Shown here: positions 5,511-47,687 of the stretch, piece after piece
Layout of the letters: each line of letters starts with the position of its first letter
How positions within the stretch are numbered: position 1 is the first letter of the stretch
DNA from: Betaproteobacteria bacterium
Lineage (GTDB): Bacteria > Pseudomonadota > Gammaproteobacteria > Burkholderiales > SG8-41
DNA length: 47,687 nt
Reading direction: 5' to 3'
Assembly (NCBI GenBank): GCA_016192825.1
Contig: JACPTK010000045.1
Coordinates: forward strand, 72,236 to 119,922
Translations under genes and position numbers: made by a program
Notes under the pieces: generated by a model
The model's database searches: none
Seen by the model: the letters and a program-made list of their open reading frames with translations, nothing else
Told to the model about the DNA's origin: nothing

Positions 5511-5551
5511 CTAGCAGCCTGCCGGACTTTGATGGTCCGACAGGCTGCTAG
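5511..5551. repeat. Dispersed palindrome, copy 1
   Basis: A 17-bp arm CTAGCAGCCTGCCGGAC is followed by a 7-base loop and the complementary arm GTCCGACAGGCTGCTAG, with one mismatch. It is one of five related palindromes in this window (others at 17915, 19059, 19235 and 47408). It lies between the two genes of the split TPP enzyme. Confidence 0.85.
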
Positions 5552-14294: not shown

Positions 14295-15008
14295 ATGAAG
14301 TACGAAGATCCCGCGTGCGCGTACTGCCCGCCTGCGGTCAGGGCCTGCCGCCAGGGCGAGGACGCCGAGCGCGGCCCCGGCTTCTGCCCGACCAAGGTCG
14401 ATCCTGCAACCCAGGCGATGGCGCTCGAGCGCTACGAGGACCCGGAGGTCCGCAAGATCTCGCGGGAGTCGGCGCTGGTCGAGTCCGAGGGCTACTGCAA
14501 GTGGACGCGGGTGGAGGAGGTCGTGCAGTTCGCCAAGCGCATGGGCTACCGCAAGATCGGCATCGCCAACTGCATCAGCTTCGTCGACCACGCCTACGTG
14601 CTGAGCGGCATCCTGGAGAGCCACGGCTTCGAGGTGGTGTCGGCCGCCTGCAAGACCGGCAGCATTCCGAAGGAAGACCTGGGCATCGCCGATCGCGAGA
14701 AGGTCCGCCCCGGGCAGTTCGAGGCCCTGTGCAATCCGGTGTGCCAGGCCGAGCTGCTCAACGAGCACGGCTGCGAGCTCAACATCGTGCTGGGGCTGTG
14801 CATCGGCCACGACAGCCTGTTCTTCCGGCACGCGAAGGGGCTGACGACGGTGCTCGTCGCCAAGGACCGCGTGCTCGGCCACAATCCGGTGGCCGCGCTG
14901 CAGCTCGCGGATACCTATTACAGCCGGGTGTGGGGACCGCTCAAGCCGGCCAACCCGCCCAAGCTTCCCGTGGCCGGGCGGCGCAACGTCAAGACCGATG
15001 CGAGGTGA
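14295..15008 (+). CDS. DUF1847 domain-containing cysteine-rich protein
   Basis: 237-residue protein of the DUF1847 family. Cys8, Cys11, Cys18 and Cys31 lie in the first 31 residues (ACAYCPPAVRAC, GPGFCPT), and more cysteines follow in GYCKW, NCISF, AACKTG and LCNPVCQAELLNEHGC, which suggests a metal or Fe-S site. The remainder resembles other members: KIGIANCISFVDHAYVLSGILE, LGLCIGHDSLFFRHAKG and TTVLVAKDRVLGHNPVAAL. The function is not established. ATG 14295 is preferred because GGAGGA lies 7 bases before it; GTG 14280 would place the ribosome site inside the gene. It is convergent with the cytochrome gene. Confidence 0.85.
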   Translation: MKYEDPACAYCPPAVRACRQGEDAERGPGFCPTKVDPATQAMALERYEDPEVRKISRESALVESEGYCKWTRVEEVVQFAKRMGYRKIGIANCISFVDHAYVLSGILESHGFEVVSAACKTGSIPKEDLGIADREKVRPGQFEALCNPVCQAELLNEHGCELNIVLGLCIGHDSLFFRHAKGLTTVLVAKDRVLGHNPVAALQLADTYYSRVWGPLKPANPPKLPVAGRRNVKTDAR

Positions 15009-17914: not shown

Positions 17915-17954
17915 GCTAGGAGCATGTCGGACTTGGGTCCGACATGCTGCTAGC
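17915..17954. repeat. Dispersed palindrome, copy 2
   Basis: Arms of 18 bp, GCTAGGAGCATGTCGGAC and GTCCGACATGCTGCTAGC, enclose a 4-base loop with a single mismatch. The core GTCGGACTT/GTCCGAC is shared with the other copies. It sits between the 51-residue gene and the hydrolase gene. Confidence 0.85.
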
Positions 17955-17988: not shown

Positions 17989-19062
17989 ATGGCTCGCGAC
18001 CCGCAAGTTGACCTCATCCTGTCCCATTTCACTCCGCGCTACGTCGCCACGGGCGTGGATCCGAACGACTTGAACCGCTTGGCGGCCCGGATCGATAACT
18101 GGGCCGGCTGGTGCCGTGCCTGGTCCGAAGAAGCGGGCCGGCACGAGCAGCTCGCGGCGGAGGCCGCGGAAAAGAACCGCCGCGCAACCGCCGCGGAAGG
18201 CTTCCTGCGCGCGGCGATCTACTACCACTACGGCAAGCATCTGTTCGCCAGCTCACCCGCGGAATACCGGCGCGCGCACGAGAGCATGCTGCGCTGCTAC
18301 ACCGCCGCGGCCGCCGACACCGATCCGCCGATGCAGCGCGTCGAGTTCCCGTTCGAGGGCGCGCGCATGGCCGGCTGGCTGCGCCGCCCGCGCGCCGCCG
18401 GTCGCCCGCCGGTCGCGATCATTCTTCCCGGCCTCGACGCCTGCAAGGAGGAGCTGCACGCCTGGAGCAACGCTTTCCTCAAGCGCGGCCTGGCGACACT
18501 GACGCTGGACGGCCCCGGGCAGGGCGAGACGGCGTTCCAGCTGCCGGTGCGGCCCGACTGGGGGCGCGTCATCGGCGCGGTGATCGACGGGCTGGAGCGG
18601 CGCGAGGACGTGGACGGCGGCGCGGTCGGCGTCGTCGGGCAGAGCCTGGGCGCGCTCTACGCGCCGCTGGCGGCGGCGGGCGAGCCGCGGGTCAAGGCGT
18701 GCATCGCCAACTGCGGGCCGTTCGACTGGGGGGCGACGCTGCCCAAGATGCCCCGGGTTTCGCAGGACGTCTTTCGGGTGTGGAGCCGTGCGACGACGCA
18801 AGCCGAGGTCGACGCGCTCGCCGCGCGGATGACGCTCGAGGGCAAAGCCGAGCAGATCCGCTGCCCGCTCCTGGTGGTGTTCGGAGGAGGCGATCGGCTG
18901 ATAGCGCCGTCCGAGGGCGAACGGCTGGCGCGCGCGGCCTCCGGCCCGACGGAGTTCGTCCTGTTCGAGGAAGGCAATCACGTCTGCTTCAACATCAGCT
19001 ACCGCTTCCGGCCGCTCACGGCCGACTGGATGGCCGAAGCCCTGGCGGGGCGGAAGGCCTAG
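17989..19062 (+). CDS. Alpha/beta hydrolase, FrsA/DHPON-hydrolase-like
   Basis: 357-residue serine hydrolase. A helical N-terminal domain (residues 1-110) with NWAGWCRAW and AEGFLRAAIYYHYGKHLF precedes the catalytic domain, an arrangement seen in 2,6-dihydroxypseudooxynicotine hydrolase and FrsA-like esterases. The triad is readable: Ser219 in GQSLGALYA, Asp302 in GGGDRLI and His331 in EGNHVCF. I chose ATG 17989 (MARDPQVD) since the frame above it reads through palindrome copy 2. The TAG stop is part of palindrome copy 3. C-C or ester bond cleavage is likely; the substrate is unknown. Confidence 0.88.
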   Translation: MARDPQVDLILSHFTPRYVATGVDPNDLNRLAARIDNWAGWCRAWSEEAGRHEQLAAEAAEKNRRATAAEGFLRAAIYYHYGKHLFASSPAEYRRAHESMLRCYTAAAADTDPPMQRVEFPFEGARMAGWLRRPRAAGRPPVAIILPGLDACKEELHAWSNAFLKRGLATLTLDGPGQGETAFQLPVRPDWGRVIGAVIDGLERREDVDGGAVGVVGQSLGALYAPLAAAGEPRVKACIANCGPFDWGATLPKMPRVSQDVFRVWSRATTQAEVDALAARMTLEGKAEQIRCPLLVVFGGGDRLIAPSEGERLARAASGPTEFVLFEEGNHVCFNISYRFRPLTADWMAEALAGRKA

Positions 19063-19267
19063 CAGCCTGTCGGACTTGGTATTCCGGCAGGCTGCTAACA
19101 GCAAAACCGCTTGCGAATTTTCAACGAAATTCGGGATGACGCCTCTTCTTGGCCTTCAACGGACACGCGAGCAAGCTGAAAATACGGATTTCACCGCCTT
19201 TTTTCTTCCGTTATCGCGCAGGCGGTTTTGCATTAGGAGTTTGTCGGCCCAAGTCCGACAAACTCCT
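19059..19267. mobile_element. Non-coding MITE-like element bounded by two palindromes
   Basis: Palindrome copy 3 (19059-19098) and copy 4 (19235-19267) enclose about 136 bases. Just inside each lies a matching inverted repeat: AGCAAAACCGCTTGCG next to copy 3, and its near complement CGCAGGCGGTTTTGC next to copy 4. No reading frame of note is present. The first about 85 inner bases align with the terminus of the insertion element at 47447 onward, including ACAGCAAAACCGC and GGGAT. This fits an internally deleted, non-autonomous derivative of that family. A/T content is above that of the flanks. The left palindrome overlaps the hydrolase stop. Confidence 0.7.
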
Positions 19268-19291
19268 GGGGCGAGCGACTGCTTGAGAAGC

Positions 19292-19322: not shown

Positions 19323-19340
19323 CTCAGTTCAAGAACAAGA

Positions 19341-19421
19341 AATGGACAGGATTTACAGGATTAACAAATTCAAGAACCGAACAAAATCATGTAAATCCTG
19401 TTAATCCTGTCTATTTTTTTC
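19341..19421 (+). terminator. Long hairpin with T-run built from the ACAGGATTTACAGGATTAA repeat
   Basis: The arm at 19341-19365 pairs with 19391-19415 at 22 of 25 positions (GACAGGAT... against ...ATCCTGTC), with a 25-base loop. A run of seven Ts (19414-19420) overlaps the base of the stem, as in an intrinsic terminator. The left arm belongs to the 31-bp repeat also found before dinB. It lies 50 bases upstream of the CoA-transferase gene. Together with the MITE-like element and heptamers it accounts for the 407-bp gap after the hydrolase gene. Confidence 0.6.
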
Positions 19422-19469
19422 GCGGCTCGCGGCTGGGCTGGGCCAATTGAATTCGCTGAAGGGACTTTC

Positions 19470-47407: not shown

Positions 47408-47687
47408 CTAGCAGCCTGTCGGACTTAAGTGTCGGACAGGCTGCTAACAGCAAAACCGCCTACGGATTTTGAATGAAACCCGGGATAGGGACCCTTATTG
47501 CCCTGCAAAAGGCGGACGAGTAGGCTCGAAATGAAGTTTTCATTGTTTTTGGCAATGTTTCACTTAATGGGTAAACGCTGCGTCGAAGACACCAGCCGCT
47601 TAAGCATAAACGCTATGAAATCGGTGTCTTGTGGCATGCGATGCTTGATGTCAGCTTCTGCGAGATATCTCGGCAGGTGTTTGGGGC
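47408..47687 (-). mobile_element. End of an insertion element, cut by the window edge
   Basis: The element starts at palindrome copy 5 (47408-47446; CTAGCAGCCTGTCGGAC with its complement). The conserved inner segment ACAGCAAAACCGC and about 110 non-coding bases shared in part with the element at 19059 follow, then the 3' end of a transposase-like gene. The rest lies beyond 47687. That makes the palindrome either part of the element end or a preferred target. Confidence 0.6.
47560..47687 (-). CDS. Transposase-like protein, C-terminal 41 residues (partial)
   Basis: An open frame enters from the right edge and stops at a TGA (complement of 47560-47562). It reads PKHLPRYLAEADIKHRM and ends KRLVSSTQRLPIK. 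The KHLPRYLAE stretch resembles the C-terminal part of ISXO2/IS1595-type transposases, but the piece is too short to be sure. Its position inside the palindrome-bounded element supports a transposase. The catalytic region is outside the window. Confidence 0.45.
   Translation of the reverse strand, partial: PKHLPRYLAEADIKHRMPQDTDFIAFMLKRLVSSTQRLPIK

Follow-up and report, generated by a model that had tools for sequence, protein, structure and literature searches.

A palindrome-ended MITE with IS1182-type outer arms in a betaproteobacterial draft genome

Architecture of the element and of the right edge

The window, i.e. the whole stretch of 47,687 nucleotides that was analysed (G000:C49:72236-119922), belongs to the draft genome of a Betaproteobacteria bacterium (5.1 Mb, 123 contigs); the contig terminates at 47687, the right edge of the window. 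At 19059-19269 lies an element for which a first-pass annotation had reported palindromes at both termini, an inner inverted repeat and the absence of a gene. We confirmed all of these features, and the parts of the element are as follows:

19059-19269, plus strand: whole element with the flanking putative 4-bp target copies (CTAG at 19059-19062, CTGG at 19266-19269)
19059-19079, plus strand: left outer arm, an IS1182-type terminal inverted repeat, CTAGCAGCCTGTCGGACTTGG
19060-19097, unstranded: left (Y) palindrome, formed by the terminal repeat and its reverse complement
19101-19115, plus strand: inner inverted repeat, left arm, core GCAAAACCGC
19217-19231, minus strand: inner inverted repeat, right arm
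19235-19267, unstranded: right (Z) palindrome
19249-19269, minus strand: right outer arm, an IS1182-type terminal inverted repeat, reading CCAGGAGTTTGTCGGACTTGG

The stems of the left palindrome (19060-19074/19083-19097) match over 15 nt at 93%, those of the right palindrome (19235-19247/19255-19267) over 13 nt at 100% and the arms of the inner inverted repeat (19101-19115/19217-19231) over 15 nt at 93%. The outer inverted repeat (19058-19079/19249-19270; 22 nt, 82%) was absent from the first-pass annotation and proved to be the key to the identification of the element. Folded as single-stranded DNA, the sequence reached -55.2 kcal/mol (z -7.79), which none of 200 shuffles equalled; Rfam gave no match at the gathering threshold anywhere in the window. 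With regard to the surroundings, the upstream gene takes its TAG stop codon from the CTAG of the element (window 19060-19062; the same is seen at L125:11135-11138), and a repeat, ACAGGATTTACAGGATTAAC..., at window 19329-19426 adjoins the element and has a 98-bp match of 93% identity in the relative G002 (C19:6635-6732).

The element had also been described as related, at roughly two-thirds identity, to an insertion element at the right edge of the window. The kinship stands: palindrome and inner repeat are common to both sequences, 19098-19186 aligns with 47446-47538 in 65 of 97 columns (67%), and the similarity exceeds the claimed length, as the palindrome at 47409-47446 aligns too. The local alignment score of the element against the right edge was 68, whereas 300 single-base shuffles reached 20 at most. 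What does not stand is the reading of the right edge as a single element, since it consists of a sibling of the element up to 47550 and of another insertion sequence (IS) from 47551 on:

47408-47550, plus strand: sibling element from a second subfamily, interrupted by an IS so that only its left part is present
47551-47687, plus strand: left end (GGCAATGTTTCAC...) of a different, unnamed IS that runs off the contig; identical terminus at 8 contig ends

The second subfamily comprises nine complete copies of 207 bp (L052-L054, L056-L061), all with the same right-hand palindrome at their end, and imperfect copies, of which L050 consists of the left part only, L051 has a truncated left palindrome and L055 has altered ends. 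The IS starting at 47551 with the bases GGCAATGTTTCACTTAATGG has an identical start at eight places, L042-L049, each at the end of a contig or close to it, and the eight preceding flanks are all different, two of them being MITEs of the element's family; thus, a different IS has inserted into the sibling MITE at 47551. The left end GGCAATGTTTCACTTAATGGGTAAACGC is the terminus of this unnamed IS in the window (47551-47687) and at L042-L049. In a plasmid collection searched at 1e-5, there was no match for either the element or the right-edge IS.

Copies, distribution and insertion sites

In the host genome, BLAST returned at least 40 alignments of at least 174 bases with 84-100% identity, query included, among the best 40 of 302 candidate stretches. 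The pattern GCAAAACCG-N96-122-CGGTTTTGC, representing the inner repeat, occurs at 116 places of this genome, and the reversed pattern used as control at none. Of 41 genomes, nine contain the inner-repeat pattern, all of them within the same family, which accounts for 25 of the 41, whereas the pattern is missing from the 16 genomes of the order's other families; with BLAST at an E value of 1e-5, a match was obtained in 12 of the 41, every one within the family.

The length of the copies, measured from the A of the left CT/AG to the last base ahead of the right AG, is nearly constant. The 55 distinct host copies that remained after collapsing duplicates are 206 (7), 207 (22), 208 (22), 209 (2), 210 (1) and 202 (1) bp long, and the range of 206-209 bp accommodates 53 of these 55 copies as well as 20 of 23 copies from relatives; the searches behind these counts admitted outer spacings of about 160-270 bp and 180-255 bp, respectively, and truncated and chimeric copies (e.g. 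L062-L065, L125:3640 and L125:11137) were excluded. The interior differs among subfamilies although the length is near-constant. Conservation among the 55 copies breaks off sharply at the left CT and the right AG, their flanks are unrelated to each other, and 43 of them have CTAG on both sides. Two further sets were used, one of 76 copies (53 from the host and 23 from relatives) and one of 62 host copies retrieved via the inner repeat for the comparison of sites.

Palindromes of this kind are also found alone, twice in the window itself:

5511-5551, unstranded: solo palindrome like that of the element, CTAG at both ends
17916-17953, unstranded: solo palindrome like that of the element, CTAG at both ends

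Solo palindromes of another class, AGGA(A/T)TTTGCCGG... (L110:16381, L111:2635, L129:14684 and L127:17048), have neither the two-sided CTAG nor the inner repeat. At L129:14172-14549, two elements of different subfamilies have the middle palindrome in common (Y-core-Z-core-Y), which gives the locus a mosaic-like appearance.

Eight host sites were compared altogether with those of relatives, and sites lacking the element were found. At L115:16882, the element is absent from six relatives, with other bases at this place in G003; compared to G002, about 15 bp differ beside the insertion and no duplication is legible. The element at L125:11137 is absent in G003, and further empty sites exist in G002 or G003. 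For the site of the 19059 copy itself, the right-hand gene was matched at E 1e-20 in five of nine same-genus relatives and the left-hand gene in none of the nine, among the best 33 candidates per genome.

A target duplication could be read to the base at two of the eight sites, L037 and L041, with one of the two target copies changed in each. At L037, the element splits the remnant of a TctC-like gene (...GGSSDI/LARKIG...) and is flanked by CTAG on the left and CTGG on the right; with one target copy, the remnant reads PPGGSSDI-LARKIG and matches the homologous gene of G002, in which CTCG is present once, the comparison being with a homologous gene and not with the same site, and the rest of the remnant being decayed. 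At L041, CTAG on the left and CTCG on the right face a single CTAG in G002, where the bases CTAGGAGTTTG are themselves element-end-like and possibly a remnant. These two sites fit a 4-bp duplication of a CTAG-type target, as judged from their sequence. A duplication of this length is also apparently listed for ISPse1, a member of the IS1182 family caught on a trap plasmid, for which the consulted part of PMC3281130 gives IR 16/16 and 4, the latter read as the length of the direct repeat.

Taken together, copy number, lack of coding capacity and empty sites bear out the first-pass description of a MITE-like, non-autonomous element: it is a MITE of more than 100 copies, abundant and mobile on an evolutionary scale.

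Relation to IS1182 termini

The outer arms were compared to the termini of 65 loci with genes for relatives of the L139 transposase, taken from a collection of 84,980 species (GTDB genomes). Because L139 itself has an end of this type, the survey samples L139's own branch of IS1182. With up to one mismatch allowed, the motif CTAG[CG]AGNNTGTCGG was found at the right end of 53 of 61 loci, at the left end of 25 of 41 and at both ends of 20 of 37, compared to a background of six matches in 248,528 bp outside, counting both strands. In the MITE, ACTT follows TGTCGG in most outer arms (Y, 66 of 76; Z, 68 of 76) and in none of 150 inward arms, and the same ACTT is present in the IS1182 ends L140, L142, L143, L145, L174 and L187. 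Given this match to IS1182 termini, including the ACTT, the outer arms are IS1182-type terminal repeats, of L139's branch. The end palindromes arise because each terminal repeat precedes its own reverse complement.

Remains of such elements are present in the host. Within the 388 kb of host genome read, a broken IS1182-family element at L128:7953-8472 starts with CTAGCAGCCTGTCGGACTTGG and ends with GTCCGACAAGCTGCTAG, and another one, in L110, terminates at 14988 with a comparable palindrome. The sole NCBIfam match of the host fragments was the IS1182 transposase NF033551, with scores below the curated cut-off because the transposases are incomplete; NF033551 was also the best match of the full-length L132, here above the cut-off. 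L132, the one full-length ORF from a search with PF05598, has ends that differ from those of the MITE, and the IS1182 copies L132, L134, L137 and L138 of the host and G006 share only CTAGGAG with the MITE, followed by CTGCGCGG or similar. No intact IS1182 element with MITE-type ends was found in the host among the four loci of the PF05598 family search and the fragments within the 388 kb. PF13751 (IS1182 transposase) was detected in three of nine element-bearing relatives, out of 11 matched by BLAST, a count that speaks neither for nor against the link to IS1182 and is to be read with the loss of multicopy ISs from draft bins in mind. Judged by its ends, the likely parent of the MITE is the IS1182 family.

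Doubling of the ends to palindromes was seen at four of 89 IS1182 ends, with none in an inner control. Two of these four, L140 and L174, come from one record set, L140 being a contig of the same-genus G006. In the MITE, the two arms of a palindrome are in agreement over their first eight bases in 131 of 150 cases, and this agreement persists where the stem varies among subfamilies, e.g. AGGAGTTT, AGGAGCTT and AGGAGTGT. The inner repeat GCAAAACC is present at 145 of 152 MITE ends, compared to none of 102 IS1182 termini. Doubled ends together with a second, inner inverted repeat are, among the termini compared, unusual for IS1182. The inner repeat has a nearly invariant core, a continuation that depends on the subfamily and an almost constant spacing between its arms. 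Across 54 distinct arm pairs, within-copy agreement was 6.48, compared to a mean of 5.85 and a maximum of 6.19 in 2000 shuffles, relatedness of the copies being uncontrolled. The inner repeat could be a second recognition site, a device for pairing the ends or a site for a host protein.

Mode of movement and comparison with known systems

On the basis of these data, the element is very probably a MITE of the IS1182 family, which encodes DDE transposases, moved in trans via its outer arms by an IS1182-type transposase with a 4-bp CTAG-type duplication. We infer the IS1182 transposase as the mover from the terminal sequences. Such an enzyme, supplied in trans, would bind both ends at their outer arms, CTAG(C/G)AGNNTGTCGGACTT, and move a unit of roughly 205 bp into a CTAG-type tetranucleotide, the four bases of which would be duplicated on insertion. 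The inward-facing copy of each terminal repeat may derive from back-to-back ends, and the inner inverted repeat may help, e.g. by bringing the ends together, because the length stays near 206-209 bp while the interior diverges.

A more elaborate, two-layer organization is conceivable but doubtful. The core, of a fixed length of about 20 helical turns and delimited by an inverted repeat of its own, GCAAAACCG(C/G)C, would lie between two 38-bp palindromes, each of them a minimal back-to-back pair of IS1182 ends that is also able to move alone. If so, the palindromes would act as tiny arms of a composite transposon, and many of the genome's scarce CTAG sites would be occupied by the family. On contig C123 (L110-L120), CTAG occurs 64 times compared to about 699 times expected from base composition, a roughly tenfold deficit, and termini of elements, palindromes or IS1182 copies make up 16 of the 64. 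The window has 14 CTAG compared to 147 expected, six of them termini, and in nine stretches chosen for containing palindromes, such termini account for 40 of 73.

The arrangement of two different palindromes in inverted orientation, separated by a spacer with complementary ends, is the one described for REP heterodimers in the consulted parts of PMC3733652 and PMC3116915, and the element could in principle be a REPIN- or BIME-like REP dimer moved as single-stranded DNA by a RAYT (Y1 HUH transposase). The host genome has eight Y1_Tnp loci, and the shared middle palindrome at L129 would suit such a dimer. However, inspection of the fetched flanks placed the element's palindromes near only one of the eight loci, L078, and there the Y1_Tnp gene is flanked by a different palindrome, GCAAGACCTGACCCC/GGGGTCAGGTCTTGC. 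In addition, the tag is CTAG and not GTAG or CGTC, and the outer arms match IS1182 termini. Finally, two of the compared sites carry signs of a 4-bp duplication, which is not expected of HUH enzymes. We therefore consider movement by a RAYT unlikely, and a RAYT/REPIN origin was rejected as the main reading, no cognate RAYT with the same palindromes being present among the eight Y1_Tnp loci. The gene at L078:1361-2206 (G000:C119) is RAYT-like, has its own palindrome on both sides and a MITE copy just downstream.

Even less probable is stem-loop-replacing transposition, in which an inverted repeat of the target is replaced and nothing is duplicated. This mode has been proposed for IS1272, a member of the IS1182 family, in the part of PMC5678879 consulted, and it would suit both the approximately 15 bp of G002 sequence missing beside the insertion at L115:16882 and the solo palindrome at L122:9063-9096, which sits between the inverted flanks TTCGCCG/CGGCGAA. 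Against it, the flanks of the 55 copies show no inverted-repeat symmetry beyond CT/AG (8 to 17 of 55 per position), and two sites carry target bases on both sides. There is hardly any case for the first-pass proposal of the right-edge insertion element as autonomous parent: 47408-47550 has palindrome and inner repeat in common with 19059-19267 but belongs to a MITE subfamily of which nine complete copies exist elsewhere, and a separate IS, the same at eight contig ends with eight flanks of which only two are MITEs, begins at 47551.

Read as an IS1182-type MITE, the element resembles IS1182 ISs (NF033551) in its outer ends, CTAG(C/G)AGNNTGTCGG..., and in the CTAG at both ends, but has no gene, has each end doubled to a palindrome and, unlike the IS1182 termini examined, contains the additional inner repeat. 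With bacterial MITEs such as Chunjie (PMC10969869), RUP and NEMIS (PMC3733652), as far as these are described in the portions consulted, it has in common a size of about 200 bp, IS terminal inverted repeats, the lack of coding sequence and the many copies, whereas two nested inverted-repeat systems and a near-constant length with diverging interior set it apart. REPINs and GTAG- or CGTC-tagged REP dimers likewise have two inverted palindromes, a spacer with complementary ends and solo palindromes, but the element differs from them in being tagged with CTAG, in having IS1182-type ends and signs of a 4-bp duplication, and in lacking a recognised cognate RAYT. The PATEs of Haloquadratum have near-terminal palindromes and no transposase either, but according to the part of PMC3119063 consulted they have neither terminal inverted repeats nor duplications, and their relatives are IS605-type elements. 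Searches of PMC full text with two 12-base pieces of the palindromes gave unrelated matches, and neither there nor in the literature on IS1182, MITEs and terminal inverted repeats did we find a description of this element family; IS1182 is absent from the main text of the MITE review PMC10969869, as far as consulted.

If moved by an IS1182 transposase, the element would represent a REP-like population of palindromic repeats that is linked to a DDE insertion-sequence family and not to RAYTs. Shape alone would therefore be insufficient to assign palindrome-ended repeats to a RAYT, and the element may serve as a natural test of the use of palindromes by IS1182 transposases.
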